Source: Salvelinus alpinus (Eukaryota > Chordata > Actinopteri > Salmoniformes > Salmonidae). From it: 64,000 nucleotides of DNA. Position 1 is the first letter of the stretch, and each line of letters opens with the position of its first letter. The DNA lies in assembly GCF_045679555.1 (NCBI RefSeq), contig NC_092120.1, positions 12,389,805 through 12,453,804 on the forward strand. The letters run 5' to 3'. The notes beneath the pieces were generated by a model. The model saw only the letters and a list, made by a program, of their open reading frames with translations, searched no databases and had not been told where the DNA came from. A program made the translations under genes and the position numbers. Positions 16,736 through 62,040 of the stretch are shown here, in pieces.

Positions 16736-19158
16736 CCCAAAAATATGGGGGATTGGAAATGATGCAGACAATTACATTGATGGAAGCAACAATCTATCCG
16801 CAATATTAAAGCTGATCCACCCACTAAAATGATATCTATATATACACACACACTTTCTTAAAAGAGTCAGAATTGATCTAAGATGACTCAATACATTTTT
16901 CATTAACTTTCTCGTTTCTGCAAAGTTAATATTTTAGTCGTGTAATTTTACATCTAAGATGTTGGTGCAGTATTTCTTAAGTCATTTTTGGGGTATGAAA
17001 ACAAGTCGTTTCCCGTTGAATGACAAGCACGTAATTGAAGAATCCCTACTGTTGATCAATGACTATAAAAAAGGCGTAGACTTCGGCTACTAAAATTAGG
17101 GTTGCTGTGAGAAAGAATTTGCACAAACAGACCAAAAAACCCTGCTCGAAGATAACAAACTAAAACTCCATAAGCACAAACTGTTCCGGATGGGAAGCAT
17201 CCGGACGCCTTTAGACACTTTATCCTGGTGCCGTGCCTGTGGGAACTACTCTTTACCTTAAAAAAAAAAATCCACTCTGAAATAACAGTTTAGTTACGGT
17301 GTCATATGTGATTTGTGCTTACTATCAATCTATTTTTATGGTGTAATATGTGGCTGCCTTAGCTTCAGGCCTGGGCAATTCCAGTCCTCGGGGCCTGATT
17401 GGTGTCACTTTCCCCCTATCCCTAGCAAACACACCTGATTTAAACTAATTGCATTTAACTGAAGATCATGATTAGTTGATTAGAGTCAGGTGTGTTAGCT
17501 GGGACTGGTTCAAAAGTGTGACACCATAAGGCCCATGAGGACTGGAGTTGCCCAGGCCCGATGTAGCTAGTGCCTGGCAAGACCCACTTGAACTAGCCCT
17601 TTGGTGATGGTAACCACGGTGGTTGCCAACTTCATTAGCAGGAGGATTAGGGGAGGTCTGAAGTGAGCATTAGTCACCATGGAGAGGGCCTACTACAATT
17701 CCTCATAAGACCTCTATTGGTGTGTGTTTGTGCTGTAACCAGAGACGACAAAGGAGATCTGAACAAACAGAACTACCACACACACACACAGAGTGATCAT
17801 TAATGACTAAGCGCAACATGACCCTTTGAAAGGGTTCCCTTAATTGAGGCTTGATATAGCTGCAGGCCTCCTGCACAAACTTGTTCGCATTAAATTAAAG
17901 TACATTGTGTTTACTCTAGCATATTGGTTGTTTCCAAACCACTTTTCATTACCAAAGAAAATCCTCTTTATCCAAAGTATGGCATGCTCTGACACAGGTA
18001 ATGTGAATTTGTTGCAAGATTAGCCTAGGTGAGACTAGTGAGTCTTCTACAGATATCATTTTCTCATTGACAACCTCATAAGTTACACATACTACATTTG
18101 GAGAACTGTTATGAGACGGAGTGCAAACAAGTGAACTCAAATTTCCCCTCAACTTCCGTCACTACCCTGTGATATCTCCAACTTTCCTCGGCCCAGCAGA
18201 CGTCAAACAATACCTGCTCTGTGGCTGATTTCCATAGCTGTGTAAAACATGCCTGATTAGATTGTACATTGCTGACCTATGCTTCCTTCCGCCATTGGCC
18301 CCCCAACTGCTCCAGTTCTCCTCCTTAAGCTTCAGGGGAAAGCGTTATCTACAATAACCAGTCTGATTCTGACCTTTCTATACATCAGTGACAGACACAT
18401 ATGCAAAAAGAGAAGTGTGGTATTTCCGGGCTTTCGCTCAAATCAGTCATTTTATGGCCTATGTGCAAGAGGGTTTCAATGTCATGTCATTTTAAATTTG
18501 CATATCATTTAAAAAAATTGAGACTGGATGCATTACACCCGTGGCACTCGGAGATATACTGCTTTGGTATGCAGAAGCAACTCTCAAGTTGGTAAATTAG
18601 TCTGAGCAACAAAGGATGTGGTTAATATTAGCTTCAACTGTTACAACGCTATGATTGTGGTGCAGATAGAGCTGTCAGATGCAATTTGTGGAAACATCTC
18701 TAAAGTGTATAAGGAGGTCACAGCCATAATGCAACATTGTAAAGATCTTTGGACTCCTGTCAACTTATTTTATTGGCACCCAACAGGTTCTGGCATTCTT
18801 AATTTAATAATGATGTTTCTGACAACTGAGGCTGCAGCGATACAGTGGTGGCCTGCCCATGACACACATATAGGCATGGTTACCACAGAAGCTTCATTTC
18901 TAGGAAATAACCTCACAGTGTATGTCCAGGGGGTATGGTGTGAATAAACATGTTTGACTGTGTGTGTGTGTATAGATGACTATGTACAAAACAGGAATTA
19001 ATTTGTGTATGTGGTTACTTTTCAGCACCAGAAACTAGCACAGTGCAGATGTCACTGCTGTCTTTTCACCCCCACCCCTTCTGAGAAGTAGTCTCAAAGT
19101 TGACAGCAAAACTTCTGCTTTCAGACAATTGCTGCCACAAAGTGAATAAAGTCACATT
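16736..19158. other. Gene-free stretch downstream of mcl1
   Basis: Contains one clear MITE (17366-17563). No exon supported. The ORF at 18618-18947 has no recognisable domain. Confidence 0.4.
17366..17563. mobile_element. Palindromic MITE, hAT-like ends
   Basis: CAGGCCTGGGCAATTCCAGT at the left is answered by an inverted ACTGGAGTTGCCCAGGCC at the right, and the inverted similarity continues inward (CCTC.GGGGCC / GGCCCATGAGG). The 198-bp unit has no coding capacity. The CAGGsCTGGGCAA end is typical of hAT-like MITEs. Flanks TAGCTT and TAGCTA suggest an imperfect target duplication. Confidence 0.7.
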
Positions 19159-19159
19159 C

Positions 19160-20365
19160 TTTATTCATTGCAGTCACAAAAGTTGCATGATTTTATCCTT
19201 TAATCATATAACTTCAGGAGAATAAAGGAATTTGCCAGCAAGATGCATCAGGAGGGTTAGTGCTAGTTTGTTAGGTGGAACTGCTGTACACGTTTACAGT
19301 CCAGACGATCTTGCCTCTATTGAACCAATGCCAGATACCATTTGCAATCTTTAAGCTCATATTTAAAAAACTTATACCTGTGAGCACATTGCATTTACAT
19401 GGATATAACTTGGAAATGAAACACTTCAAATACAAAATCAGCATAGTCTTGAGAATGGAATTTTGAACTGACTTTAAAAACAGGTTCCCCCTTCCCCCTC
19501 CCAGTGCAACAGCCACAAGATTTCCTTAACCAGGAAGTCACATTACATCCACGCAAATGCATTGCCAGGCATGACTGGCAAATCTACCCCAAGGAACAGG
19601 AATATGGACTTATGAATTGGGTGTAGGCGAGATGACATGCGTGTAAGGCAATTAAATGCATGTAGAATACAGTCTTCCCTGCTGTAAGAACTTTACATTT
19701 TCAATGCCCATAAACTGGGTATACCTTAGTTGAATTCTAAGGCCCTCACTGGTCAGTTCAATGCAGATTCTGCCTTTCTGCCACCAATGCCTGTTTGTAC
19801 ATGTATGACTAATATCACAAGGAATAGAAACAAGTCATTTGAGCCAACTTTATGGTCAGAGGCGGAACTTTGCCATTGTGAAGTATAGCTATAAGCTAGT
19901 GCTTTTCCACCTTGATTACAAAAAGTTGAACATTTGCAGATTAATTAACTGTTTTTGTACGGGTCTAAATTCAACTATACATTTATTTCAAAAATAAAAT
20001 GTCTGTACTTTTTACATTAAATAAAAGCTCCATTTAACAAGTCCATTAAATTTAAGTAGTCAGATGAATATATTTGGAGACCGTTCCGACAACTACCAAA
20101 TATCCTCAAATGGCCACTCAAACAAAAAAAAAACAGCACCAACACATGATGCGGAAAAAAGCTAACTTGAGCTTGACACCAAAGCACTGTCCCAATTCAG
20201 TCCATCACTATAATCCAACAGACTGATGACCCTCTTCTTTGACTAAACAGGACATCATTGGGTAGTCATTCCAATCATGGTGATATTAAGGATTTCAGAG
20301 AACTTGCGGGAATAGTCCATTTTCTTTGTTGAAAAAAAGTAACAGATAGTCTTTTATAGTTCAAT
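19160..20365 (-). other. mcl1: Probable 3' UTR of mcl1
   Basis: Downstream of the mcl1 stop, minus-strand AATAAA signals occur at 19982-19987 and 19160-19165. Either could end the transcript. Assignment is by position only. A palindromic AATAAAG...CTTTATT pair at 19145-19165 gives a signal on both strands. Confidence 0.45.
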
Positions 20366-21561
20366 TCACCTGATCAACATGGCGAGTGTTGCCCCAAGCC
20401 CAGCAACTCCAGCAAAGGCTAGGAGGGTGTTCCTTACTGAAGACTCTGGATCTTGCACATGAAAGAACTCTACAAATCCATTCTGAGTAAGAGACAAAAA
20501 TACAGAGTTAGGTTTATGATTAGCTACTGAACAAGTAGGCTAAATAAGATTAACTGTCCTCATTTAGATTTGAAGATGTGAGCCAATGACTCATGGGCCA
20601 CATAGAAGACTCACCCAAGCATTGTTTTTGACCAGCCAGTCCCTTTGGTCAGAGAGGAGGTATGTGGCGATCTCTTGGCCCACCGACCCAATGCAGTGTC
20701 CCCTGCCCATCTCCTTCAAGTGCTGGCTCACCACTGCTCCAAATGACACCAGGCTGGCGATGCGACCCCAGTTCGTGGTCCCATCACTGAACATGGCCTT
20801 GGCCACAGAATTGATGAAACCCATGTCATCGCATCGGTCATCTAAGTCAAGTTTGGCGATCATACCTAAAAAAAAATATATATATTAAAGTCTGAGTAAA
20901 ACGAACTAACCACATTCCTGATAATATTGCTGTTATTCAGCAAGTTAGCGCATATTGCGCTCAATACCATCTTTAAAACAGACTATACAGATACTTAGCT
21001 AGCTAGTGCCAGTGATTAGGATCTATAGAGATGATTACTGTAAATCTACGTACCATTGTATGCGTATTGGTGCTTTGATATGATATCCTTCACCACTCGT
21101 GTCATCGTCGTAAGAGCCTTGCTTTGCTTCCAACGAGGCGGAGACAGTCCTGTATAGCCCCCCAATAAGTTGTCAATTAGTTGTCTTGTATCATGTTCCA
21201 ATACTTCATCGCCCGATGGACAATTCGATAGTTCAGGCCCACATTCTGACGCCTTCTGTCGAGTGCATGGCAAAGAACCGTCAGAGTCGTCATTGTTGCT
21301 TCGGTCTGACAAATGATTACCCAGGACGTTGCTTTTCACGACATTCACTCCTAATTTCGTGGGTCGTTGTGGAGTGTCGCTAGTCCCGTTACCCAAGTCA
21401 GTATCCACTTTTGACTTCGGTGACGCCCCAGCACATACGGCCCTAGTCTCGCCGAAATAGTACAAAGAGGTACCAGCAGGGTACGAAGAGCCTCCGACGA
21501 CTCCATTTTGAATATTCAACATCGTAGTTGTGGCTCGTGTAATCGACTTCGACAGAATCAT
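20366..21561 (-). CDS. mcl1: Induced myeloid leukaemia cell differentiation protein Mcl-1
   Basis: Three exons on the minus strand, 21561-21054, 20865-20615 and 20482-20366, join in frame through GT-AG introns to give 291 aa. MCL1 is a BCL-2 family survival protein at the outer mitochondrial membrane that holds BAK and BH3-only proteins. Residues 1-148 are variable and rich in Ser/Thr/Asp, as in the short-lived PEST-bearing N-terminus of the family. A BH3 region lies at about 149-165 (ALTTMTRVVKDI). BH1 is FSDGTTNWGRIASLVSFGA (about 195-213), BH2 is WLVKNNAWNGFVEFF (246-260, split by intron 2), and a hydrophobic tail anchor covers 272-291. The three-exon structure fits MCL1. Oddity: the BH3 core that reads GD in mammals reads VK here. 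Synteny with ensa supports the call. Confidence 0.95.
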
Positions 21562-22240
21562 CTTGACTTAACCTTTAGATAAAGAAACAAGAATTTGAAA
21601 AATAAAGGTACGCTTCTAGCAGTTATTTTAAGAAAAGCTAGCGCTTAGCTACTTTGTTGCTCAAATATCCCCCATCATTGACTGCTAACTACAACAGTGA
21701 GCCCGAAGAGGAAATGACCAACCTTTTGTCGTGTAGTTAAGAGGGAGGGGAAAGTGGGAGGGACTTCGATGACTTTCGACTCTGCCTCCTCCATTGGGTC
21801 TCCCCTCTTCCTTGAAGTAGTTTCACAATTCTATCTGGGATGGTTTTCCAATAACATTCAGATAAATACCTCCACGAAGAGAGGATATAAAAAAGCATTT
21901 CTCTGCATTGAGCAGTACAGATAAATAACACATTTTTATGTACACTTTGATGTAGCCCTTCAGAGACCATTGATAGTGAATGCGGAGTTCTCCTGTCCCC
22001 TAGTGGCCAATGACGGGTATAGACTCATTTATCAACATAAAACGGTGATCCTAGACTTTGTTTGTCATTTATCAACATAAAGTGGCGGTATCCTGCCCTG
22101 TGCGGTTGCAAAGATTACTGTAGCTAGAGACAGTTGGTTGGTTATTGGTTTCTAATGTAAACTTCACCAGCACTGGTGATCAAATCAATAATGTGAGAAG
22201 ATAATTGAAAATAGCCAAAAGTCATTCATATTCATGTAAA
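21562..22240. promoter_or_regulatory. mcl1 5' UTR/promoter region and mcl1-ensa spacer
   Basis: Upstream of the mcl1 ATG. No TATA box is obvious. A 16-bp motif CATTTATCAACATAAA is repeated at about 22027 and 22068. Function unknown; assignment is positional. Confidence 0.35.
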
Positions 22241-22242
22241 AG

Positions 22243-24945
22243 TTTATTTCAAATACTGACAAATTTGCTCCACTACTTCCACACAACAAACATTATTAGT
22301 ACTCATGTACTTTCTAATTTCTTAAAATCAATCTTTTGTTTTGTCTCCAGCTCCACAATACGCATATCCTGATGTAAACCCCCAGTTATTGGGAGCAAGG
22401 GTGCTCCAGATATCCCTGCAGTCTTGGGCCAGGATAAACTTTTGTTGTAGTTATGTAGTGATGTAAGAGAACACTAAAACATCTTTACTGTATGCAAAAC
22501 CAAAAACAGTTTCAGTAAGCAGCACACAGTCATTTTAATTTGTTTACATTCTGGCACATACTTATGGTTGAACAGGTGACATGGTATTTTAACAAACCCT
22601 GCTATACCCCTCATTGCATCGCTCCATACAAAGCCAGACAGTGCACAAAAACATAGCAATCAAGAATTCCTCTGTTGTTTCAACAACCTTAATTTCAGCA
22701 GCATATCCAATTATATTATGACACTTTTTAAGCCTGCAATGGCAAGCTACAATTATTTAGGATTCTGCACGGTCTTTCTGTTCAAATTCAAGTAACAAGT
22801 TGGGGTCAATTAAATTTAAACTCCTGCTGGCCAGTTCCCAAAATGGATTGCATTGAGCATGGGTAGAATTTCAATTCATATCCTAATTGAAATGGAATTA
22901 TACCCCCAACCCTGGAGGGGTTAGTCAGTCTCCAATTGGCAGACATTATTCATGGTAGGAGTGGGTCCAATTGTTTGAATCCTGGGACAGGCTTTCTTTA
23001 TAGGGTAATATCTCCGTTTAAGATTTGTCATCGACTGAATCAGCAGCATTTACACATTCATATTATACAGATTAAGATCTCTGTCGTAAAAAAAAGAAAA
23101 AGATAAAGCAGAAGTAGTGTATTCACCGACAGGAGAAAGGAAACATTGAATCAGAGAACTACAAGTAGTGAATCAACAGAAAGAAAACAAATCCTCAACC
23201 CCCAAGTCTATTTACACCCGCTGGGACAGAGAACAGCAGCACATTCATACAAACCCAGACAAACACACTATCTTCTTCCCTGCAATTTGACACAGATCCG
23301 TGTCTAATATTCAAAAGCTGCCAAGATGGGAGTGATCAAGTGTGTATTTTATAATTTGTGTGGAGTGTGTGATACATTGAGATAGGACGACTAGCCTTTA
23401 CTTTTGTATGATTTATCTAACACACCTCTGACCATAATTACTTTGCAAGTTGAGCCATCCCAACAGGTGTGAGCAGGGTCAACTAAATACACTCACACTT
23501 TTCCCCCTCTCCTCATGTCATAAAATCCCTTCCCTTTGCCATGTGTCAAGTGAGCATATCTCTAAAGCGCACTGTGTGTTCCAGTTAGGTCTGTGTGAGC
23601 CCGGGGCCAGTCAGGGTCAGTTTATCAGGTGGCCGACTGTTTACCCCATTACTGACGTCACAGATTTTTATATTTAGAATGTCAATACGTAAGGCTATAT
23701 GCTTTAGCAGTACGCTGTGAGGCTCCTGCTACGTTGAATTTGAAGGAGAGACTGAGGAGAGGTTTAGCAACTAATGTAATTGGGAACTAGGCAGTAATCT
23801 TCTGTTACTGGAAGAGTTTCTCAACAGGAGCTGCCATTAACAGTGAAGAGCCAGATTGTAGTAAATGGCTAATGCGTGACAATGAACAAACAACCCATTA
23901 TAAAGACACAAATCATACCAAATGTCACATTTCTCAACACAATACAGAAATATACACTGAATTGATCCCCTACAAATAATTTAGGCTTTTTGATGTGATG
24001 TAATAGCCACAGAACTGAGATTTAACTTGAGTATTATACAGTTTCTTATTTTCCCAGCCTTAAAACGATACATGGGTATTTAGTTTGCTTTGCCATTGCT
24101 TTCGCCATGGGCAGCCTACAGACAGTGTGTGGATTGTCAGGACATTGAGAGGGAAGGATGGAAGGTGTGGAGAGTGACCATGGACATTCCAGGGCTTCAT
24201 TTGGTTGCTTGCTACTTCCTATCAGTCGTCTAACCCCTCCAGATTTGCACATTTTGTTACATGTTACAATCATGCAGCATATTTAGAAAAAGAAGAGCAA
24301 CAGGGAGTCAAGAATTAAAGCGACATGAGCAGAAAATGTGCAGTTTCATATCCGTTCGTTCAGGTCAGCGTGGACGACCTTGGATTTTTGTTTGACAAAA
24401 CATGAGATAAAGGAAACCTCAAATCAGTTTCCACATTTCCCTCTGATTACCACTCCATTCCTTTGGATACTTCACCATGGTTCCCTTCCCTCCCAGATTT
24501 GGTGTGCAAGCAAAATACGCAAACATCTACCCCCAGCTTTGACGAGAACACAACATCGAAAAATGTAGAGCGATCATGGTTCCTAACTCCCTCGTCAACA
24601 ACATATTTTGGTGTTGTTCGGGATGCAAAAACGTACTGTACATAATACAAAGTGCATTAAACTCAGCCTCCCCGATGGCACATCTACTTTATGTACCTCT
24701 GAACACCAAACCAAGACATAAGGGAGGCGGTAGAGCAGAGTGCACAGAGAGCAGAGCTGTGTGGAGAGATGGTAGAAAAGGTCCCAGCTCACCTCCCCAC
24801 ATACAAGCAATATGTACTGACTTTCACAGCTCTCCCCGATATGTTAAAGCCAAGTGAAGCCTGGAGATGACTAGGGGGGGGGGACATTGTTGGGGGACAG
24901 GTGAGGAATGTTAGCTGGGGGCCTAGTGGATGCGTGGAGGCTAGG
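22243..24945 (-). other. ensa: Probable long 3' UTR of ensa
   Basis: No exon is found between the ensa stop at 24946 and a minus-strand AATAAA at 22243-22248. A 3' UTR of about 2.7 kb is plausible, but shorter forms cannot be excluded. Confidence 0.4.
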
Positions 24946-29283: not shown

Positions 29284-29872
29284 TACGCAGCTCTAATGGA
29301 CTGGAAGTCCGAATTGCTTGAAAACGCACGTTAGAATGTATGCAGGGGTGCTCCTCGCCTCCTCTAGCTATTCCACTGCTAGCAAAATCTAACCTGCCTC
29401 TCGTGAACAAGTCTCCTCGATAAAAAAAAAAAGGCTAAATATTTTCTGACGCCGTTGTGTGGGATTGCCATTTGTGACAGACATATACAGTAACCAATTG
29501 TATAAGGAAACACGTTGTATTAGATACCAAGAGAGCCAATGAAATGCTACTACTCGTAGAGAGATGCTGATTGACAGGGCTGTGTCCAATAGAGTGCGGA
29601 TATTCAATCTGTGCGCAGCGTTGCATCAAACTACACCAACAACAGAGCGAATTCCCTACAGTGCCGCAACATAAACACCTTCATTTAAAACTGATGTTTA
29701 CCTCCGCCAGGACATATCACTACCTTTGATATCTCTATTCACGCAATGTATGTTGTGGTGGCAAGAAAATGTACGTTATCTAAGGCTGCCCTCTGATTGG
29801 CTACTTTAGCTGTCCTTTTTGGCGGGTAACTGTGTCTGGCGCGAGTTTGGCCCACGGTCCAACAGTTTCTTA
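29284..29872. promoter_or_regulatory. Divergent ensa/hormad1 promoter
   Basis: The ensa start codon (29283, minus) and the predicted noncoding hormad1 exon (ending at a GTAAGT donor at 29873, plus) are head to head. Between them lie CCAAT boxes at 29494, 29536 and 29586, and an inverted one (ATTGG) at 29796. An E2F-like TTTTTGGCGGG lies at 29816-29826, and GGCGCG at about 29838. CCAAT boxes are typical of bidirectional promoters. E2F6-type sites are known to silence germline genes such as meiotic factors in soma. Use of these sites here is inference. Confidence 0.6.
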
Positions 29873-29879
29873 GTAAGTT

Positions 29880-30215
29880 CGATCTGGCTAGCTAGCTAGC
29901 TTGTTTTTGGTTGTTATTTTTTTTAACCAAAAAACAGATTGAGTGACTGCGCTCTATCTAGGTAGTAATAGCTAGCTATGTGAGTTATGTAATTTCATAC
30001 TAATCACAATAGGTTGTAGAGTAAAGTCAGTGACATCAGTGGCTGTGTGTACTGCTGCTAGCTACGTTAGCTAGCAAATGTAATGTAGATAGCTAGTTAG
30101 CTAAAGTAGCTAGCCAGATTAGTATAAAATATTTCTGTATCTATCTGTGTAAACTAGTACTTAGCTAGCTAGCTACATATTTCAACATAGCTTTACCTTG
30201 ATAGCTAGCTATCTG
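29880..30215 (+). repeat. Clusters of TAGC tetranucleotide repeats in hormad1 5' intron
   Basis: GCTAGCTAGC runs recur at about 29886, 29970, 30058, 30090, 30163 and 30200 within the predicted first intron (29873-30241). The predicted acceptor TTTATTTTGTAG lies at 30241. Confidence 0.6.
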
Positions 30216-30275
30216 GCTTCTAATGAATCTTTATTTTGTAGATTTGACAACTTGTTATCAACTAGTATTACTACC

Positions 30276-33200
30276 ATGGCATGTGAACAACGTTTGCGGG
30301 CTGCTCAGGTAAAACCTCTGGCTATCCATAGCCAGACCTTGGTCCTATTGAATTGCTGTTTTATAGCTAGCAAATGGCATGTTCTAATAACGTTAGCATG
30401 TTCTGTGGATATCTACATGCCTCTATTTATTCAGACATCTTCAAATGGCCTTGGTGTAAGCGCCTGTCTTTGTTATATTTTATAGGGCACCCAGTTGCTG
30501 CCAAATGTAGTTTCAACAGAGCAGCAGTCCTTGATTGTTGTGAAGAAACTGCTGGCCATTGCAGTCTCCAGCATCACTTATCTCAGGGGTCTTTTCCCAG
30601 AAAAAGCTTATGGGAGAAAATTTGTTGAAGGTCAAACACATTTTATGTTCTTTTTAAATGTACTCAATTGTTATTTAAATGTTGATACTGTAGCTAGCCA
30701 ACATCTTCAAGAAGTAGACTTACACTTTTTTGTCTCTATGCCACAGAGCAGAAAGTTATGATCCTCAGGGAGGAGCGCACCTGCCCTGGTGCCAGTCAGA
30801 TTGTACAGTGGTTAGTATACACCACCAAGCCTCAGTGGGAAATTCCAGTACAGTGTTTTCTCTGTGGCCAAATCCTTTCCCTTTATCCTGGTTAGATTAT
30901 TTATTCAGTGTTGATTAATTAAGACTATTTTATACACCTCCCAGGATGCAGGGATGCTTTGATGCCCTTCAGAGGAAATACGTAAGTGAGATACTAGCAT
31001 TTAGTTGTTTATTCATTATCTACATGTTATTAATGTTAATTAATTACATATAATGAATGTCTTGTATTCCAACAGTTGAGGGCGGTCGTTATGTCTGTGA
31101 GTATATCTCATCAAATATTTTCTTCAGCATATAAAGCATTTTAATTAGTTGCTAAATAGTTGCTAAAGTTTGTATCCTCCTTCCACTTTCTATAGATATA
31201 CACAGACCCAGATAATCCAAAGGTAATAGACAACTTTTTAACCCCATAGGTATCGATCATAGTAATGCTTTGATTCTCTGGACTAGAACAAGCGCTACAG
31301 TATATGTAACCTCTTGAATCAAGCCTTTTCTCATTGTGACACTGGTCTTTCTTTACAATTTGCAGAAGATTACTGAATGCTACCAGTTCAAAGTCCAATA
31401 CACTGAAAAGGGACCCAAAATTGACTTTGAAAGGTATAGCTTTGTGAATGTGTATTAGGGTTGAATGGCAGGAACCCGGTTACTGAGATATACTGCCCAA
31501 AACCACTCCCCTTTCCCGGGATAAATAACTGAGAAACCGGTAAATTATAATAAATTATTTATATGAACAGCATGACGTGAAATGGAACTGTTAAATTATA
31601 TACAATGTCTAAATTTGGATTCTGTAAGGCCTTGCCTCTGGTCACTGCATAATGAATCATCAACTTTCAGGGTGGGAACCGACAGCCCATCTCAGTATGT
31701 AGACCTTCCCTTGGTAACTTTTTTTATTGTGATAGGTAGACCTACATTTGCTGCAGCACAGCCTACGCTACAGTAATATAAAGACCGAATGCGCATCTAA
31801 TTTGCACATCACCATCTGGCTTTCGGGGATCACCTTATTTTTTTATTGTAAAGATTATATATTTTTTGGATTGCAGAGTTTAAAACACTCCTATATCGTT
31901 TCTTTAAATCAGTGCATGAGTGAACACTTTCTCGCTGTCTTTCTCTCTCCATCAATTCCATTCAAATTGCATCCAAAATAGATAATCGTGTTCAAGATTG
32001 ATATATATAGGCCTATATATACAGTGCATTTGGAAAGTATTTAGAACTGTTATGAACATGACGGGAGACAGAGAGCTGGTTTCAAGCGCAGTGCGCAGCA
32101 GGTGTTTATTTGTAAAGGACCCACAGGAGGAGGCAGGTAGCTGGGTCCAGGGGCAGGCATAAGGTCATACACAGGGGGTCCAAAAAAGGCAACCGTACTG
32201 GCAGGGAAAAGGCTAGTAACGTCATCTGGGAGATCAGGCAATAGGTTGATAACAGGAAATCCGATAGGCTAAAGTACAGGCAGGGAATAGGCAAAAGGCG
32301 TCGTTAGTGAGGCAGGAAAAAACTAGCATACACGGGAGGATTAAATTACGGCAGCAGGTAGCCTAGTGGTTAGAGCGTTGGACTAGTAACCGAAAAGTTG
32401 CAAGATCGAAACCCCGAGCTGACAAGGTAAAAATCTGTTGTTCTGCTCCTGAACAAGGCAGTTAACCCACTGTTCCTAGGCTGTCATTTAAAATAAGAAT
32501 TTGTTCTTAACTGACTTGCCTAGTTAAATAAAGGTATAATAAAAAATGATTAAATTACAGGAAAAACAGAGCTCTGAATAGAAGTGTGTCACAAAACAAA
32601 CAATACCTCACAGTGATGGGGTGTGAGCTAGAAAGTGAGCTGCATTCAGGGGATCTACGTGTGTGAGTTGGAAGCAGGTGTTACAAGAACCCTTCACTTT
32701 TTCCACATTTTGTTACGTTACAGACTCGTTTTCCCCCCTCATCAATCTACACACTACCCCATAATGACAAAGCAAACAGGTTTACCTTTTTTTGTTGCAA
32801 ATGTTTAAAAAAATAAAAAACTGAAATATCACATTTACATACAGTTGAAGTCGGAAGTTTACATACACCTTTGCCAAATACATTTAAACTCAGTTTTTCA
32901 CAATTCCTGACATTTAATCCTAGTAAAAATTCCGTGTTAGGTCAGTTAGGATCACCACTTCATTTTAAGAATGTGAAATGTCAGAATAATAGTAGAGAGA
33001 ATGATTTATTTCAGCTTTTATTTCCTTCATCACATTCCCAGTGGGTCAGAAGTTTACATACACTCAATTATTATTTGGTAGCACTGCCTTTAAATTGTTT
33101 AATTTGGGTCAAACGTCTCAGGTAGCATTCCACAAGATCCCCACAATAAGTTGGGTGAATTTTGGCCCATTCCTCCTGACAGAGCTGGTGTAACTGAGTC

Positions 33201-36200
33201 AGGTTTGTAGGCCTCCTTGCTCCCACACGCTTTTTCAGTTCTGCCCACAAATGTTCTATAGGATTTGAGGTCAGGGCTTTGTGATGGCCACTCCAATACC
33301 TTGACTTTTTTGTCCTTAAGCCATTTTGCCACAACTTTGAAAGTATGCTTGGGGTCATTGTCCATTTGGAAGACCCATTTGCGACCAAGCTTTAACTTCC
33401 TGACTGATGTCTTGAGATGTTGCTTCAATATATCCACATAATTTTCCTGCCTCATGATGCCTTCTATTTTGTGAAGTGCACCTTTCACTCCTGCAGTAAA
33501 TCACCCCCACAACATGATGCTGCCACCCCCGTGCTTCACGGTTGGGACGGTGTTCTTCGGCTTGCAAGCCTCCCCCTTTTCCCTCCAAATATAACGATGG
33601 TCATTATGGCCAAACAGTTCTATTTTTGTTTCATCAGACCAGAGGACATTTCTCCAAAAAGTATGATCTTTGTCCCCATGTACAGTTGCAAACCGTAGTC
33701 TAGCTTTTTTATGGTGGTTTTGGAGCAGTGGCTTCTTCCTTGCTGAGCGGCCTTTCAGGTTATGTCGATATAGGACTCGTTTTTACTGTGGATATCGATA
33801 CTTTTGTACCTGTTTCCTCCAGCATCTTCACAAGGTCCTTTGCTGTTGTTCTGCTGGGATTGATTTGCACTATTTGCACCAAAGTACGTTCATCTCTAGG
33901 AGACAGAACGTGTCTCCTTCCTGAGCGGTATGACGGCTGCGTGGTCCCATGGTGTTTATACTTGCGTACTATTGTTTGTACAGATGAACGTGGTACCTTC
34001 AGGCGTTTGGAAATTGCTCTCAAGGATGAACCAGACCTGTTGAGGTCTACAATTTTTTTTATGAGGTCTTGGCTGATTTCTTTTGATTTTCCCATGATGT
34101 CAAGCAAAGAGGCACTGGGTGTGAAGGTAGGCCTTGAAATACATCCACAGGTACACCTCCAATTGACTAAAATTATGTAAATTAGCCTATCAGAAGCTTC
34201 TAAAGCCATGACATCATTTTCTGGAATTTTCCAAGCTGTTTAAAGGCACAGTCAACTTAGTGTATGTAAACTTCTGACCCATTGAAATTGTGATACAGTG
34301 AATTATAAGTGAAATAATCTGTCTGTAAACAATTGTTGGAAAAATTACTTGTGTCATGCACGAAGTAGGATTCCTATCCGACTTGCCAAAACTATAGTTT
34401 GTTAACAAGAAATTTGTGGAGTGGTTGAAAAACAAGTTTTTTAATGACTCTAACCTAACTGTATGTAAACCTCCGACTTCAACTGTAAGTATTCAGACCC
34501 TTTGCTCAGTACTTTGTTGAAGCACCTTTGGCAGCGATTACAGTCTCGAGTCTTCTTGGGTATGACACTACAAGCTTGGCACACCTGTATTTGGGGAGTT
34601 TCTCCCATTCTCTGCAGATCTAGTCAAGTTCTGTTAAGTTGGATGGAGAGCGTTGCTGCACAGCTATTTTCAGGTCTCTCCAGAGATGTTCAATCGGGTT
34701 CAAGTCCAGTCTTTGGCTGGGCCACTCAAGGACATTCAGAGACTTGTCCTGAAGCCAATCCTCCGTTGTCTTGGCTGTGTGCTTATGGACGACGGGGCTG
34801 CGTGGAGCAGGTTGAGAGCTTCAAGTTCCTTTGTGTCCACGTCACCAACAAACTAACATGGTCCAAGCACACCAAGATAGTCATGAAGAGGGCACGACAA
34901 AACCTATTCCCCCTCAGGAGACTGAAAAGATTTGGCATGGGTCCTTAGATCCTCAAAAGGTTCTACAGCTGTACCATCGAGAGCATCCTGACTGGTTGCA
35001 TCACTGCCTGGTATGGCAACTGCTCGGCCTCCAACCGCAAGGCACTACAGAGGGTAGTGCGAACGGCCCAGTACATCACTGGGGCCAAGCTCCCTGCCAT
35101 CCAGGACCTCTATACCAGGCGGTGTCAGAGGAAGACCCTAAAAATTGTCAAAGACTCCAGCCACCCTAGTCATAGACTATTCTCTCTGCTACTGCGCAGC
35201 AAGTGGTACCGGAGCGCCAAGAGGCTTCTAAACAGCTTCTACCCCCAAGCCATAAGACTCCTGAACATCTAATCAAATGGCTACCCAGACTTTTTGCATT
35301 GCCTCCCCCTCTTTTACTCCGCTGCTACTCTCTATTGTTATCATCTATCCATAGTCACTTTAATAACTCCACCTGCATGTACATATTACCTCAACTAACC
35401 GGTGCCCAGGCCTCCCGAGTGGTGCAGTTGTCTAAGGCGCTGCATCGCAGGTTCGAGTCCAGGCTCTGTTGCAGCCGACCACGACCGGGAGACCCATGGG
35501 GCGGCGCACAATTGTCCCAGCGTCGTCCAGGTTAGGGGAGGGTTTGGCCGGCAGGGATATCCTTGTCTCATCGCGCACTAGCGACTCCTGTGGTGGTCCG
35601 GACGCAGTGCACGCTGACACGGTCGCCAGGTGTACGGTGTTTCCTCCCGACACATTGGTGCGGCTTGGTTGGGTTGTGTTTCGGAGGACGCATGGCTCTC
35701 GACCTTTGCCTCTCCCTAGTCCGTACGGGAGTTGCAGCGATGAGACAAGACTGTAACTACTACCAATTGGATACCACGAAATTGGGGTGGGGGAAAAAAA
35801 CTAGCCGGTGCCCCCGCACATTGACTCTGTACCGGTACCCCCCTGTATATAGTCTCGCTATTGTTATTTTACTGCTGCTCTTTAATTACTTGTTACTTTT
35901 ATTTCTTATTCTTATCCGTATCTTTTTCAAACTGCATTGTTGGTTAGGGGCTCGTAAGTAAGCATTTCACTGTAAGGTCTACCTGTTGTATTCGGCACAT
36001 GTGACTAATAGGATTTGATTTGATTTTAACTTTCGCCCCAGTCTGAGGTCCTGAGCACTCTGGAGCAGGATTTCTTCAAGGATCTCTCCGTACTTTGTTC
36101 CGTTCATCTTTCCCTTGATCCTGACTAGTCTTCCAGTCCCTGCCGCTGAAAATTATCCCCACAGCATGATGCTGCCACCACCATGCTTCACCGTAGGGAT

Positions 36201-39200
36201 GGTGCCAGGTTTCCTGCAGACTTTACGGTTGGCATTCAGGCCAAAGAGTTCAATCTTGGTTTCATCAGACCAGAGAATCTTGTTTGTCATGGTCTGAGAG
36301 ACTTTAGGGGCCTTTTGGCAAACTTCAAGCGGGCTGTCATGTGACTTTTACTGAGGAATGGCTTCCATCTGGCCACTCTACCACAAAGGCCTGATAGGTG
36401 GAGTGCTGCAGAGATGGTTGTCCTTCTGGAAGGCTCTCCCATCTCCACAGAGTAACTTTGGAGCTCTGTCAGAGTTACCATCGGGTTCTTGGTCACCTCC
36501 CTGACCAAGGCCCTTCTTAGTTAGTTTCCTGGCCGGGCGGCCAGCTCTAGGAAGAGTCTTGGTGGTTCCAAACTTCTTCCATTTAAGAATGATATTGTCT
36601 TCTTGGGGACCTTTAATGCTGTTGAAGTTTTTTGGTACCCTTCCCCAGATCTGTGTTACAATCCTGTCTCGGAACAGACACAATCCTGTCTCGGAACTCT
36701 ACGGACAATTCCTTCAACCTCATGGCTTGGTTTTTGCTCTGACATCAACTGTGGGACCTTATATTGGCAGGTGTGTGCATTTCCAAATCATGTCCAATCA
36801 CTTGAATTTACCACAGGTGGACTCCAATCAAGTTGTAGAAACATCTCAAGGATGATCAATGGAAACAGGATGCACCTGAGCTCAATTTCAAGTTTCATGG
36901 CAAAGGGTCTGAATACTTATGTAAATAAGGTATTTCTGTTTTGTTTTCTAATAAATTTGCCAAATTTTCAATAAAACTGTTTTTGCTTTGTCATTATGGG
37001 GTATTGTGTGTAGATTGATGAGGAACGTTAAAAAAAATCAATTTTAGAATAAGGCTGTAATGTAAAAAAAATTATGTTAAACTCAAGGGGTCTGAATAGT
37101 TTTCGAATGCACTCTAGATGTGCTAACCTACCTCTTTCAGGAAATAAATCCAATGCAGTATTATTCTTATATTTATGTAATGAATGATGGGTAATGCATA
37201 ATAAGCTTCTAACTTATATCCTCTGTCTCTTGCGCAATACACAAGCACCTGTGCTCTGCTGGACTCTGTAAAAAAAAATGCTCCTTAGCTCTTGGAGTCC
37301 CATGCAGGAAAATCTAGACTAGAATAGCTTACTGGAAATTTAGTTTTTTGTATTTCTTATACCAATAGACTATTCGAAGAGGGACACAAGCTCTTGTTTG
37401 CCGAATGTTAAATACAGCAGCTAATAGAACTCCTGTGTAGTTTGAAAGAAGAGGGAACTCGCGATGGGGTAGGCTATAGCAGTTATTTATGCAGACCTAT
37501 AACCATCCAATCCTCGTGAAGAGAAATGAAAGGCTTTTGCATCTCATTCTAGTCCTATATTATTCAAGCATGTCATTAGAATGATGAAGATAAGGACAAC
37601 AACACTTATTTCATTTAACTGTTGAAAGGAAGGAAGGAATGAAGCAACACTAGATAGAGAAAGAGGAGGTAGGCTAATAACATTAGGGGAAATATTATGA
37701 CAAATGTAAATCAAATTCACTAGCCTATACTTGTAACTTTGTAGACCGCATGTGCTGCACCAGAATCGCATGTTCTCTCCCTGCTTTATCATGGTTTCAA
37801 CAAGGTGCCTAATTCCAGTCCATATAATACAGTATAAACAATGCAGTACAGTAATACAGTTCACACTCAAAAAGATTACTGGAGCTTGTTTCATTTATTT
37901 ACCAAAGAGAGCATATAGCTAGCTACATCTATGTGCTATTATGTTTTTCTGTCTTATGTAATGTTCAGTAGCTGTATTGGATAACGGTACAATCATTTGG
38001 GCTTGGGCTCATTAAATGTCTTTAATGTAGGGCTCATAAAATGTATTTAATCAGGTTTAGGTTGCATCAGGCATGAATTTTCGATCAAAGCTCTAATAAA
38101 ATCCAGACATAGGTCTATTTATATGCTTTTGAATGACACATCCGGTTTTGGCAGGAAATACCGGCTTCACAAAAGTGATTTATTCTCGGGATGGAACATT
38201 TGTAAAATACCGGGAAAATATTCAACCCTAATGTGTATAACATAATGATAACATGTCAGAATTTCATTGAGAAACATTGAAGAAAGAAACTTTTAATTGT
38301 CTAAAAAATGTTTACATTTATTCTTGTTTTAGCAAAAACAGCAAGAATCTGGGAAAGATGGCTTGCAGCAACACAAAGAAGTCCAGCATCCTCCTGGTGC
38401 GTAAACTCTACACACTGATGCAGAACCTGGGTCCTCTGCCAGACAATGTCTGTCTCAACATGAAACTCTCTTACTACGACGACGGTAAAGACCACACAAT
38501 GATGTCGAGCAGACTAAAAGAAAAGGGATGATGTGACGCAATACGCTGCGCAAGTGACATACTTCCGGGGTAATGTCCCGGGTCTTTTAAATGCGCTCCA
38601 AGATTATATGATCAAATTCATTTAATTACACTGAGTATACCAAACATTAGGAACACCCCATTGACCTCAGAACAGCCTCAAATCATCGGGGCATGGACTC
38701 TACAAGGTGTCGAAAGCATTCCACAGGGATGTTGGCCCATGTTGACTCCAATGCTTCCCACAATTGGGTCAAGTTGGCTGGATGTCCTTTGGGTGGTGGA
38801 CCATTCTTTATACACACGGAAACAGCATTGCAGTTCTTGACACAAACCGGTGCGCCTGGCACCTACTACCATACCCCATTCGAAGGCACTTCAATCTTTT
38901 GTATTTTCTATTCACCCTCTGAATGGCACACATACACAATCCATGTCTCAATTGTCTCAAGGCTTCAAAATCCTGTCACCTTCCCTTCATCTACACTGAT
39001 AGAAGTGGATTTAACAAGTGACAGTAAGGTATCATAGCTTTCACCTGGTCAGTCTATGTCATGGAAAGAGCAGGTGTTTTGTATACTGAGTGTATATTTA
39101 AGCAATAAGGCCCGAGGGGGTGTGGTATATGGCCAATATACCACAGCTAAGGGCTGTGTCCTAGCACAACCCCCGTGGTACCTTAATGCTATTATAAACT

Positions 39201-42200
39201 GGTTACAAACATAATTAGAGCAGTAAATATAAATGTTTTGTCATACCCATGGTATACCATGGCTTTCAGCCAATCAACATTCAGGGCTCGAACCACCCAG
39301 TTTTTAATTGTGTATTGATTTGGTCATACCCAATGCTTTTTATCAACATATTTGACGCTGAAAAAGTAAGACAGACACATCACGAAAGATAGAAAAGTCT
39401 CATTTGAACTACATCTCCTGCAGCGATGTTAGCATGCTGGAGCATGCCTGCTTGAGCTGAGGACTTACAGGAAGGTAACAACCTGTTAGTTACAGGCTTT
39501 TTGATGTGTTTTATATTAGATTAGCTGGGAGTGTTTTTCACTGAAAGTTGCCAGCTATTGCCTTTTGATTTGTAGTTCATATGTGTAGTTCAAATGAAAT
39601 GGTTGTAACTTTTCCGCTTCGTGCTTTTTGAGCGTCAAATACGTTGAAAACCGGCATATGGTATATAAATATATACAAAAACACTTTAATATATATCTTA
39701 AATGACCACGTTTTTATGAATTTGACAATAAACATTTTAAGCCCATTAGCCTACAAAACCCGGACGGAGTACGGAAGTCAAATTGAAGTGCATCTTTCAT
39801 AGGGTATAACAAGTATATGTTTTCAAAAAAACATATAAAGAGTTTGTGTGTGTGTTTGCATGTATATCTCAGTCACTCCCCAGGACTACCAGCCCCCAGG
39901 CTTCATGGAGGGGGACAGCGATAGCATGCAGTTTGAGAAGGAGCCTGTCAACCTGACTATGGGCGAGGTGGTCACTCCCTTCCACACCCTGAAGGTGGAC
40001 GTGACCACAGAGAGAGAAAGGCTGGAGCAGGTATGAAGGAAAGGGGGGAAATAACTAGAGTCAGTAATGTCAACCAGACTAGCGGGTGACACGTTGATTA
40101 ACAGCTGTCCCCTTGTCTCTGTAGGTTGATGACGAGCAGCCCATCTGCGTGAGGGACAAGTGGGAGCTGAAGATGGAGGAAGGGACAGTGACCAAGATCA
40201 GCAGTCAGCAGGTGAGACCTGAGGCCTCTAGGCTAATTTGACTGGGCACCGATGGCATGGCGCTATTGTTTTAACCCAGTAGGGGGCGTTGCTGTCTATC
40301 CCATGGGATGCATCTATAGTCTATAACATTTTTTATGGGGTTTCTACTTTTAGACTCACATGATAAAAGTAATGGAAAATCCGGACAACGACCTTTACTT
40401 GGACAATTCCGGTAGGACCTCCTCTGTCAAATCTTAGTATAAAGAAGTTTCGCTGAACATGATAACAGTAGTGCTATTTTCTCTTTTAAGAAGTCAAATG
40501 CAGTCTGAAATCCATGTTTTGTTTTATTGTGTTTTCATCGTGTTTGATGCTCAAAGAGGTCCAGGTGAACTGCCAGGAGAAGATGGAGGTGTGTGAGGAG
40601 AGCACAGAGAACTCTCAGGTAAAATAACAGCAAAATGTACATTCTGCATAGTTACGACTAAGATAGGCCTTGTATCAAGCAAATGCAAATACAGAACAAT
40701 ACAAATGCATTGGTGGGATAGTACTGTAGGAATATAAAGTAATATAGGGGTGCTCCAGTTGTGAAGGTAACGGTCTGTGGTTTGATTGACCTGTCTGTCT
40801 CAGATGGACACTTTGGGAAAGAGGACATCTGACCTGGAAGTGGTCATTAAGAGGACCAGGAGCGGACGCGTCACCAGGTCCACCCTGGTCAGTGCCCCCC
40901 AAAACATACAACCCTATCTAACTCCTACTGGTCCTGTTTAAATGGAAGACATTTTTGTATAGCGTAATGTAAAAATGACCACGAAGGATGTACAGTTGAA
41001 GTCGGAAGTTTAAATACACTTAGGTTGGAGTCATTAAAACTCGTTTTTCAACCACTCCACAAATTTCTTGTTAACAAACCATAGTTTTGGCAAGTCGGTT
41101 AAGACATCTACTTTGTGCATGACACAAGTAATTTTTCCAACAATTGTTTACAGACAGATTATTTCACTTATAATTCACTGTATTACAATTCCAGTGGGTC
41201 AGAAGTTTACATACACTAAGTTGACTGTGCCTTTAAACAGCTTGGGAAATTCCAGAAAATGATGTCATGGCTTTAGAAGCTTCTGATAGGCTAATTGACA
41301 TAATTTGAGTCAATTGGAGGTGTACCTGTGGATGTATTTCAAGGCCTACCTTCAAACTCAGTACCTCTTTGCTTGACATCATGGGAAAATCAAAAGAAAT
41401 CAGCCAAGGCCTCAGAAATTTTTTTGTTGACCTCCACAAGTCTGGTTCATCCTTGGGAGCAATTTCCAAACGCCTGAAGGTACCACGTTCATCTGTACAA
41501 ACAATAGTACGCAAGTATAAACACCATGGGACCACGCAGCCGTCATACCTCTCAGGAAGGAGATGCATTCTGTCTTCTAGAGATTAACGTACTTTGGTGC
41601 GTAAAGTGCAAATCAATCCCAGAAAAACAGCAAAGGACCTTGTGAAGATGCTGGACGAAACAGGTACACAAGTATTGATATCCACAGTAAAACGAGTCCT
41701 ATATCGACATAACCTGAAAGGCCGCTCAGCAAGGAAGAAGCCACTGCTCCAAAACTGCCATATAACAGCCAGACTACGGTTTGCAACTGCACATGGGGAC
41801 AAAGATCGTACTTTTTGGAGAAATGTCCTTTGGTCTGATGAAACAAAAATAGAACTTCCAAAGTTGTGGCAAAATGGCTTAAGGACAAGAAAGTCAAGGT
41901 ATTGGAGTGGCCATCACAAAGCCCTGACCTCAAATCCTATAGAACATTTGAGGTCAGAACTGAAAAAGCGTGTGTGAGCAAGGAGGCCTACAAATCTGAC
42001 TCAGTTACACCAGGTCTGTCAGGAGGAATGGGCCAAAATTCACCCAACTTATTGTGGGAAGCTTATGGAAGGCTACCCGAAACGTTTGACCCAAGTTTAA
42101 CAATTTAAAGGCAATGCTACCAAATACTAATTGAGTGTGTGTAAACTTCTGACCCACTGGGTATGTGATGAAAGAAATAAAAGCTGAAATAAATAATTTC

Positions 42201-49047: not shown

Positions 49048-50395
49048 CAGTGCCTTCGGAAAGTATTCAGACCCCTTGACTTTTTCCACATTTTGTTACG
49101 TTACAGCCTTATTCTAAAATGGATTAAATTGTTTTTTCTTCTCATCAATCTACACACAATACCCCATAATGACAAAGCAAAAACAAGTTTTTAGAAATGT
49201 TTGCTAAGTTAAAAAAATTATCAAAAATGAAATATCACATTTATATACATTTTCAGACCCTTTACTCTAGTAAAGGGTTTACCCTAGTACTTTGTTGAAG
49301 CACCTTTGGCAGCGATTACAGCCTCGAGTCTTCTTGGGTATGACGCACACCTGTGTTTGGGGATTTTCTCCCATTCTTCTATACAGATCCTCTCAAGCTC
49401 TGTCAGGTTAGATGGGGAGTCTGGCTGGGCCACTCAAGAACATTCAGAGACTTGTCCCGAAGCCCTTCCTGCATTGTCTTGGCTGTGTGCTTAGGGTTGT
49501 TCTCCTGTTGGAAGGTGAACCTTTGCCCCAGTTTGAGGTCCTGAGCACTCCGGAGCAGGTTTTCATCAAGGATCTCTCTGTACTTTGCTCCGTTTATCTT
49601 TGCCTCGATCCTGACTAGTCTCCCAGTCCCTGCCGCTGAAAAACATCCCCACAGCATGATGCTTCCACCACCATGCAGGGATGGTGCCAGGTTTCCTCCA
49701 GACGTGACGCTTGGCATTCAGGCCAAAGAGTTCAATCTTGGTTTCATCAGACCAGAGAATCTTATTTCTCATTGTCAGAGTCCTTTAGGTGCCTTTTGGC
49801 AAACTCCAAGAGGGCTGTCATGTGCCTTTTACTGAGTGGCTTCCGCCTGGCTATTCTACCATAAAGGACTGATAGGTGGAGTGCTGCAGAGGTGGTTGTC
49901 CTTCTGGAAGGTTCTCCCATCTCCACAGAGGAACTCTAGATTTCTGTCAGAGTGATGATTGGGTTCTTGGTCACCTCCCTGACCAAGGCCCTTCTCCCTC
50001 GATTGCTCAGAGTCTTGGCGGTTCCAAACTTCTTCCATTTAAGAATGATAGAGGCCACTGTGTTCTTGGGGATCTTCAATGCTGCAGACATTTTTTGGTA
50101 CCCCTGCCCAGATCTGTGCCTCGACACAATCCTGTTTCGGAGCTCTACAGACAATTCCTTCGGCCTCATGGCTTGGTTTTTGCTCTGACATACACTGTCA
50201 ACTGTGGGACCGTATATAGACAGGTGTGTGCCTTTCCAAATCATGTCCAATCAATTGAATTTACCACAGGTGGATTCCAATCAAGTTGTAGAAACATCTC
50301 AAGGATGATAAATGGAAACAGGATGCACTTGAGCTCAATTTCGAGTCTCATGGCAAAGGGTCTGAATACTTATGTGAATAAGATATTTCAGTTTT
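49048..50395 (-). mobile_element. Tc1-like transposon (family A), second copy, right end lost
   Basis: Left end CAGTGCCTTCGGAAAGTATT follows TA at 49046-49047, the same family as 32022-37114. The right side ends in AGATATTTCAGTTTTAAATA without a terminal repeat. Confidence 0.85.
49284..50169 (-). pseudogene. Tc1-like transposase pseudogene (family A)
   Basis: ATG at 50169 (minus) starts MRPKELSVELRNRIVSRHRS. The helix-turn-helix segment [20 protein letters not shown] follows. A small deletion removes the linker near [22 protein letters not shown] (about 49720-49770) is the first catalytic Asp block, [14 protein letters not shown] the glycine-rich box, and [12 protein letters not shown] the second Asp block, with Asp replaced by Asn/Glu context. 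The stop lies at 49284-49286. About 295 codons are left of about 340; frameshifted and inactive. Confidence 0.8.
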
Positions 50396-56800: not shown

Positions 56801-58207
56801 ATTGGCAATCGAAGCTACTGCTGAAAATGCAGGAGGAGAAGGGAATTGGTTGTGGGGACTTGCTACAGTGGATCTGGTGTACAATGCTGCGGTCATGGAC
56901 ATTGAGTCGTAGGAAACAGTGGTTATGGAAAACCATGTACTGTATATTGAGTGCCTTTTTAAAGATTTTCCTTCAATCTAGTTTGGTTTAAGTTCATGCA
57001 GCTTTCCGCTAACAAAAATGTAATCAAATTAAATCACATGCAAATTCCTAAATGATTATGTATTTCCTGACACTATTACATGATCTATTTCAGTGAAAAC
57101 AACTACAATGTAACATTATAGGCTACATTTGTATTGTACAGTGCCAGGTAGTCAAGTAGTGGGTCAGAGTGCACCATTGCAGTGTATTGCTGAGATGGAG
57201 GGAGGGAGCAGGGTAGGAGAGGCTGTTCCTGTTTTGTAAGCTGTGACATAGTGGTGTTGATGGGCACGTGGCTCTGCAGAGTTGTTCAGGGGCTACTGGC
57301 CACTGCCTTGACCTTTGACCCAGGCCTTCATTGTGGGGGTTGGGTTCTCGACTCCTCGTACCTCCCATCCCAACACCTCAGTTCAGCCCCTCAAGCCTCC
57401 TCTCCTCCGCTACACCTTATTCCGATCAATGACAGTTTCATGTGGCTTCTCAGGCCTGCAGTGACGTGTGTCCTATTGATTTATCGACATTACTCCAGGC
57501 AACCAGACCCAAAAGCTTTCTCTCAGTAGGCAGCCAGACTCCAGCTCAGTAGAGCTACCACCCCCTGTACAGGATGGGCCCATGCCAAGTCATCGAACTG
57601 GAAACAGCACTGGTCGTAAGAGCATCACATTAGCAGCAGACACATCCAAATGGAATGTGTCGCTTAGCCAATGCCTTCTCCAGAGCTCCTCCATCCATTC
57701 TGTATCATCCACCATTCTATCCTCAACTGGACATTGAACAGGGACAATGGGAGCCGCACTCTCACACAAACACATACTGTCTCACCAGTTTCCAGAGGCG
57801 GCGACTCAGTTTTATGGTTAAAAGGTTATTTTCTCTTCTCTTGTCATGCCCATGCTTCATCCTTGTGGCTGTTGCTCTCATCTGCCTCTCCTGTGGGCCC
57901 CCACCCCCTCAGGCTCTATGGTGTCCAGTGAAAGGCCGGGGAGTGGGGTGCAGCTGGACACTCCCTGTGGCCTGGCCTCTGAGGGGGAGGGGTTCACCAT
58001 TAGCATGGCCCACTGGCAGCTGGCTCAAAAGGAAGGGATTGGAGATCAGTGACCTGTCCACAGTGTCCAGCTGGGGGGTCATTTCACGGCCCACCTCCGG
58101 CCACGCGCTGGACAGCCATCTGTGTGTATTAGGCATCCTCTTATCGGGATGACCAACAAAAGTTACGAAAGCTGTTTGCCTAATCTGTGGAGAACCTCCA
58201 AAAGATG

Positions 58208-58262
58208 GCTACTGCCACAGCTGCCTCGGTGTGTGCTACTGCCACAGCTGCCTCGGTGTGTG
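58208..58262 (+). repeat. Perfect two-copy tandem repeat
   Basis: CTACTGCCACAGCTGCCTCG followed by GTGTGTG is repeated twice head to tail (27 bp each). An AATAAA follows at about 58276. Confidence 0.8.
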
Positions 58263-61200: not shown

Positions 61201-61821
61201 ATGCTGATTAAAGAGAGAAGGGAGAGAACCGGTAGGCAGGAGAGAGACGCACATATGCAGCTGGGACACAGAAGAGCCCTGCCGCAAGCAGGGAGACAGA
61301 GCTCAGGCAGAGGATGCAGAACGGATTAAAGAACAGGACAAGGAACAGAAAGCAGGGGATAATTTGAGGAGAGGAGAGCTCCGGAGCAGGCTGCGGCTGC
61401 GGAACGGAGGATGGGAGAGGAGGGGAAAATGGATGCAGGTGCTGACCTGACAGGCAAACAGACGAGAGAGACGCTGACGGCTTGAAACCCTAAACAGCAC
61501 CGACTGGACAACACTGAGCTAACCCGCAAAGACTCATACACTCTTGGCTGTAAGAGACACACACTCTCATGCTGACAGGCCAAGGCAAGCATTATGATGA
61601 TAGAAAATAGAACAGTACGTATGATGTTAATCTATATGTAAATGTTTCATAAGTGGTATCTCTAATGCACAGTGGCAAATGGTCATACATTGTTAAGCAG
61701 TTATGATTAGGGAATTCATAAGATGGTTATGGATATTTCTGAGAAATGGGTTTTTATTCCAAGCGGGACTGAAAGGTGTGGAGGGCATGCAAGGAGGGAG
61801 ATGATAGAACGGCAGGGTTTG

Positions 61822-62040
61822 TTTGTGTGTGTGTGTGTGTGTGTGCGGGGGGAGAGAGAGCATGAGAGAGAGACAGAGAGAGAATTGAATTGAGAGAGAG
61901 AGAGGCAGTCAGAGAGAGAGAGCATGAGAGAGAGGGACAGAGAGAGAAGCGAGAGGGATAGAGAGAGAAGAGAGAAGGATAGAGAGAGAAGAGAAGTGAG
62001 AGAAGGAGGGGGGTCAGGAAGAAAGAGGGGGAGAGGGGGT
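61822..62040 (+). repeat. (TG)n followed by (GA)n microsatellite tract
   Basis: About ten TG units near 61824-61844, then a 190-bp purine-rich AGAGAG/GGGAGAG tract. The Arg/Glu-rich ORF here is a product of the repeat. Confidence 0.85.

Follow-up and report, generated by a model that had tools for sequence, protein, structure and literature searches.

How did one intron come to hold seven transposable elements set inside one another, and can their order of arrival be read from it? The question is raised by hormad1, a meiotic gene lying in a stretch of 64,000 nucleotides of Salvelinus alpinus (NC_092120.1, positions 12,389,805 to 12,453,804, forward strand; hereafter the window, to which plain coordinates refer). 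The intron that separates coding exons 7 and 8 (31434..38332, plus strand, GT...AG) measures 6,899 bp; the two target copies of a single hAT element, taken from outer edge to outer edge, enclose 6,791 bp of it. We consider it very probable that unrelated transposons built up this nest step by step, in a hormad1 intron that was ancestrally short, about 116 bp. A non-autonomous hAT would have inserted close to the splice donor, and a Tc1 element (Tc1-A) would then have entered the last TA of the AT palindrome of that hAT. After the two copies of the gene, that of the window (contig C35) and one on contig C4, had stopped sharing sequence, an element resembling a long terminal repeat (LTR), a Tc1 of a second family (Tc1-B) and a truncated long interspersed element (LINE) would each have inserted independently into Tc1-A; one short interspersed element (SINE1) would have entered the LTR, and another (SINE2) the LINE.

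Architecture of the nest

The intron was delimited by its splice dinucleotides and by the frame. Read by eye, exon 7 continues into exon 8 in an unbroken frame (...DFE-S-KNSKN...), so that the original prediction of a coding frame kept across the nest holds; on these dinucleotides and this frame, 31433 would be spliced to 38333. Translation by tool covered the C4 copy, whose eight coding exons form one open frame. Exon 8 of the window matches the Pfam HORMA domain (2e-11). We take the gene to be hormad1 from the label it was first given and this match.

All duplications and ends named in the original prediction were found again by script search and by reading. The nest can be written hAT (Tc1-A (LTR (SINE1), Tc1-B, LINE (SINE2))). 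These seven elements make four transposon layers; the nesting stands as first proposed, and the proposed depth of five is reached only if the intron is counted.

Layer 1 is the hAT-like element (31456..38230, plus strand), with 11-bp inverted ends TAGGGTTGAAT (31456-31466) and ATTCAACCCTA (38220-38230), each of these 11-mers being single in the 64-kb window. Script search placed its 8-bp target duplication ATGTGTAT at 31448..31455 and 38231..38238, and the same insertion is present on C4. Its own DNA amounts to 1,680 bp (31456-32021 and 37117-38230). Beyond the target copies, the intron keeps 14 bp next to the donor and 94 bp next to the acceptor, so that with one 8-bp target copy it would have measured about 116 bp before the hAT arrived. 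None of three short frames of the hAT had a Pfam match, hence the label "hAT-like, non-autonomous".

Tc1-A, layer 2 (32022..37114, coding on the minus strand, own DNA in four pieces, TA at 32020-32021 and 37115-37116), occupies the last TA of an AT-rich perfect palindrome of 20 bp in the hAT, TATATATAGGCCTATATATA (32002..32021), a recurrent Tc1 landing site. It has long inverted arms (36900-37023 against 32737-32841 plus 34486-34505). Its transposase matches PF01498, HTH_Tnp_Tc3_2 (36290-36508, minus strand; E 3.2e-20, 72.6 bits, cut-off 31.5), and a second frame that was searched had no Pfam match. Another Tc1-A of the window, at 49048-50395, is without the three inserts and has a worn right end. 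An 18-bp stretch of the nested Tc1-A, ACAATCCTGTCTCGGAAC, is doubled at 36658-36697 with a spacing of 22 bp; it is single in the C4 and 49-kb copies.

Three elements lie in Tc1-A as a third layer. The LTR-like element (32048..32685), a putative solo LTR, has TG...CA ends (TGTTAT...GTTACA) and a 5-bp duplication, AGAAC, at 32043-32047 and 32686-32690. Tc1-B (32842..34485, minus strand) is full length, with both ends, CAGTTGAAGTC, and a TA duplication (32840-32841 and 34486-34487). Its transposase matches PF25787, HTH_SB (4.1e-25, 87.7 bits, cut-off 43), and a DDE_3 match (2.0e-5, 24.9 bits) falls below the Pfam cut-off of 28.6. The transposase frames of Tc1-A and Tc1-B are both broken. The third element is the 3′ end of a 5′-truncated LINE with a TTTGAT-type tail (34786..36027, plus strand). 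It is present in Tc1-A as had been claimed, with no flanking target duplication; instead, it replaced 24 bp of Tc1-A that are missing relative to the 49048-50395 and C4 copies. The fragment is too short to show a reverse transcriptase; of two frames searched, one has no Pfam match and one, running across the joint between Tc1-A and LINE, has an ALKBH8_N match (0.0049) below cut-off.

Both SINEs, putatively of tRNA type, stand in the fourth layer, on the plus strand. SINE1 (32350..32547) lies in the LTR, flanked by the 11-bp duplication GATTAAATTAC (32339-32349 and 32548-32558). SINE2 (35408..35804) lies in the LINE between copies of CCGGTGCCC (35399-35407 and 35805-35813), a 9-bp duplication extending to 15 bp, AACTA[A/G]CCGGTGCCC, with one mismatch. 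The sequence GGTTCGAGTCC is readable within SINE2. An Rfam scan returned no SINE match; SINE1 may belong to the HpaI family.

Every family of the nest has further copies, and copies without the inner inserts were seen too (loci gathered from the genome are given L-numbers below), which speaks against a chance pattern. For the LTR-like family, a first look gave 1,088 candidates, of which 40 were scored; apart from the window's own, the listed matches show 91-95% identity, and 38 of 40 share its left end. The three other copies inspected (L089, L090, L091) all begin TGTAAT; L090 and L091 end GTTACA, and the end of L089 was not found. A target duplication was confirmed in none of the three, L090 having the mismatched pair CCATG / GAATG and L091 breaking off after three bases that match. 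No same-strand pair at provirus-like spacing occurs among the 41 listed matches (40 of 1,088 scored); one pair on C19, with one member whole and the other partial, is separated by about 170 bp. The SINE1 site is empty in each of three LTR copies inspected for it, and a further SINE1 copy (93%) is found in L033. Relatives of the LINE and the SINEs came from loci gathered for other purposes: copies in L021, L047, L056 and L063 share the 3′ end of the LINE, those in L047, L021 and L056 span the SINE2 site without SINE2, and the other SINE copies are dispersed.

A second gene copy and the order of insertion

Nesting gives an order: hAT, Tc1-A, then the LTR, Tc1-B and LINE, whose mutual order it does not yield, with the SINEs last in their hosts. 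An independent view of this order came from a query made of exon 8 and its flanks, which had two matches in the genome, the window itself and C4:45507622-45507930 (95%). The C4 intron (L042) contains the hAT with both ends, flanked by ATATGTAT and ATGTGTAT, the left copy thus differing by one substitution, and Tc1-A stands at the same TA of this hAT in the same orientation. The LTR, Tc1-B and LINE sites are single-copy and empty there, both SINEs hence being absent, and the LINE site retains the 24 target bases. Since C4 shares the outer two elements and is empty for the rest, hAT and Tc1-A are older than the split between the gene copies, and the remaining five elements are younger. This is the early-branch state that the predicted insertion order calls for, and it supports that order. 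Both gene copies carry the hAT, and no site empty for it was found.

The C4 intron has grown in its own way as well: a different Tc1-B occupies the left half of its hAT palindrome, and its Tc1-A contains a 339-bp TG...CA piece between copies of GTCTG. This piece (L042 6450-6788, TGTCAC...GTTACA) is LTR-like and looks unlike the LTR of the window. In an upstream hormad1 intron of C4, a third-family Tc1 is present (L042 1462-3065), and the corresponding site of the window, near 31130, is empty.

Could the inner elements be collapsed or misplaced repeats? The hAT, Tc1-B and LTR-like families are repeated, and such regions are generally prone to misassembly. However, the window contains no N, six of the seven elements have matching target duplications on both sides, the LINE is a clean 24-bp replacement, and C4 has the matching single-copy targets. 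That another locus was assembled with the same skeleton but private inserts of its own makes collapsed pieces, a weakness foreseen for the original prediction, an unlikely source of the pattern, and we give an assembly artefact practically no credit.

The C4 samples are collinear with 17914-22604, 29658-40064 and 57541-64000 of the window, which fits a homeologous block. The most probable reading of the C35 and C4 gene copies is as homeologues from the salmonid genome duplication. If the C4 copy were instead a later segmental duplicate, the date of the split would not be tied to rediploidization. The collinear samples extend over no more than about 46 kb, and the flanks are 94% alike, above the roughly 87% of early-resolved blocks in the accessible text of PMC8127823. 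Against this, order and orientation are the same in the compared stretches on a different chromosome-sized contig. The same text treats blocks of 90-95% similarity as an intermediate class, in which a flank divergence of 5.6% would place the C35/C4 block. We therefore regard a segmental duplicate as unlikely, and keep to homeologues.

That the nest was kept for a function, for instance as an intronic regulatory element of a meiotic gene, has nothing in its favour beyond its position in such a gene. The two gene copies keep different inserts, and intronic Tc1 elements showed no or slightly repressive activity in a liver assay, in what could be consulted of PMC10085797. A functional origin thus appears extremely unlikely, and the nest probably grew neutrally. 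Further downstream, at 38593-38656 on the minus strand, a SNORD64-like Rfam match below threshold (24.9 bits, cut-off 40, E 0.28) is probably due to chance.

The AT palindrome and the probable common descent of Tc1-A

Relatives of the hAT were gathered with a 1,101-bp query from its right-hand part, which begins 13 bp beyond the TA used by Tc1-A; apart from the restriction to the best 40, scored out of 1,123 first-look candidates, the state of the palindrome therefore did not affect the choice of loci. Within these 40, the C4 copy is 89% identical over the whole query and the next best 82%, while some partial matches of about 570 bp reach 87%. Full-length copies in one piece, reading through the Tc1-A site, are present in L048, L049 and L053. 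The ends TAGGGTTGAAT and ATTCAACCCTA occur exactly also in L048, L053, L055 and L062. A scan of 28 other loci with loose end matching found the 8-bp duplication exact in L048 and L052, and with one mismatch in L047, L053, L059 and L064; the other 22 of the 28 had no pair or a poorer one, the left end being out of view in some. A 25-bp unit of the hAT (positions about 1455-1501) forms a tandem array of roughly at least 10 units in L061, L062, L068, L071 and L074, and is not expanded in the window copy.

Twenty-eight hAT loci were informative for the palindrome, the window and C4 counted once plus 27 of L047-L074; L050 and L087, where the site is not visible, and a place on C21 were left out of the count. 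Tc1-A or Tc1-B lies in the palindrome at 5 of the 28 (window, L051, L060, L068, L074), and L068 (Tc1-B) and L074 (Tc1-A, opposite orientation) use exactly the same TA as the window. Elsewhere in the hAT, four insertions of the two families were counted (L063, L065, L066, L072). The palindrome contributes 8 of 160 TA and received 5 of 9 insertions (P = 3.3e-5, in a test conceived after seeing the data); without L051, where the Tc1 end is worn, the ratio is 4 of 8 (P = 3.7e-4). In L051, L060, L068 and L074 the left part was out of view, as was the right end in several hAT copies, and only the right-hand junction was seen in these four loci and in L054 and L081.

Other Tc1-like ends were found at the palindrome in L054 and elsewhere in the hAT in L070. 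These two loci and L081 stayed out of the test, because the systematic search along the hAT covered Tc1-A and Tc1-B only. Among further loci, L080-L088, the site is visible in 8 of 9; one (L081) is filled at the exact TA by another Tc1-like element, and seven are unfilled, including L083, which has lost the palindrome. Such a preference is expected from the accessible text of PMC7913693, where zebrafish ZB prefers ATATATAT targets and Sleeping Beauty and Bari behave similarly. A Tc1 preference for AT palindromes may have favoured the arrival of layer 2. In a wider reading, which we hold to be about evenly balanced, the hAT family would be a set of dispersed landing pads whose palindrome attracts several Tc1 families, hAT copies would seed nests genome-wide, and nests in duplicated genes would be readable as a stratigraphy across rediploidization.

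Tc1-A itself may offer a second landing site in its inner repeat. Two other Tc1-B copies, L001 (851-2471) and L007 (1020-2630), are surrounded by sequence resembling Tc1-A, at or close to the place that Tc1-B occupies in the window. Both are over-represented, because Tc1-A flanks were part of the query, and they were not used to estimate a rate. Their flanks suggested that Tc1-A and Tc1-B had moved as a composite. This was rejected, as the junctions place one copy within a diverged relative and the second in the opposite arm of a Tc1-A, so that the two seem to be independent insertions into similar sites.

As the site is a hotspot, the Tc1-A shared by the window and C4 might represent two independent insertions at the same TA, only the hAT being shared by descent. 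Repeated hits on the palindrome, with L068 and L074 at exactly this TA, speak for it, as does the divergence of the window and C4 Tc1-A (10.1-10.5%), within the range of the nine other pairs (9.9-12.4%). Three copies cannot show common descent, and five were used instead. In the five-copy tree, the window and C4 copies are sisters with a support of 0.999; 12 of 20 two-against-three sites unite them, and any other pair is united by 2 at most. With the partial L074 left out, 19 of 29 two-against-two sites group the same pair, compared with 6 and 4 for the alternatives. The internal branch is 0.020, and the terminal branches 0.069 and 0.052. Both copies, moreover, have the unusual last base of CACTC, an ending found in none of 11 other listed ends, nine of which are CACTG or CTCTG, and they share TA and orientation. 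Two insertions are therefore very unlikely, and descent from a single Tc1-A insertion remains our preferred explanation.

One set of figures weighs against simple descent, under which Tc1-A should match the flanks. Between the window and C4, divergence is 5.6% in the flanks, 7.0% in the hAT and 10.1% in Tc1-A (32022-37114 against L042 5581-7523), where it is about double the flank value and uneven from piece to piece (4.8% to 16.3%). Decay of CpG was considered as the source of the additional Tc1-A divergence and rejected, since non-CpG sites show the same excess (5.1, 6.2 and 9.2%). It may stem from how AT-rich ends were aligned, or from conversion by other copies. For its part, Tc1-B differs by 3.2% from the consensus of 40 copies, a lower-side estimate because these were chosen by similarity to it; this is less than either Tc1-A terminal branch, as the nesting demands.

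Comparison with known systems

Each part of the nest is of an ordinary kind, and the useful additions are the calibration by two gene copies and the palindrome. Further inserts lie within Tc1 copies at other hAT loci (L077, L078, possibly L075), two more Tc1 copies are present in the same window, and Tc1-mariner elements make up 12.89% of the Atlantic salmon genome in the portion of PMC8127823 available, so that a four-layer nest is unsurprising. Among the papers listed in searches for nested transposons of salmonids, and for hormad1 together with salmon, no title or abstract start dealt with this locus, and no repeat family carrying such a pad was met in a small look at the literature (including the available parts of PMC3544897, PMC3878927 and PMC7913693). 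Taken alone, the nest is a local curiosity. With a half-grown intron preserved on a second chromosome, the insertion order and the split of the gene copies each provide a date for the other; extended to the whole genome, this two-copy dating would place transposon bursts in time relative to the rediploidization of each block. The palindrome offers a testable cause for the pile-up of Tc1 in this hAT.

The two Tc1 families of the nest recall the salmonid Tc1/mariner elements DTSsa, SSTN1, Tss and SALT1, which, in the excerpted text of PMC2198921, likewise have a TA target, long inverted ends finishing in CAGT and domains of Sleeping Beauty or Tc3 type; the likeness is one of general features, and not of family reference sequences. 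In the Tc1 bursts of PMC8127823, as given in its accessible text, the peaks stand at 87 and 93%, near which lie our Tc1-A pairs (about 88-90%) and most of the best relatives of Tc1-B (91-94%), a loose comparison given a single locus and Tc1-B copies picked by similarity. ZB, Sleeping Beauty and Bari use the central TA of ATATATAT in the consulted part of PMC7913693, and each half of the hAT palindrome contains a TATATATA run; unlike the ZB targets described there, the preferred site is here carried by another repeat family and so exists in many copies. Finally, interruption matrices and TEnest (PMC5657132, as far as its available text goes) follow the same logic, the order being deduced from what interrupts what. 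In contrast to that chronology, the order of the hormad1 nest is independently checked by a gene copy that branched off part-way.

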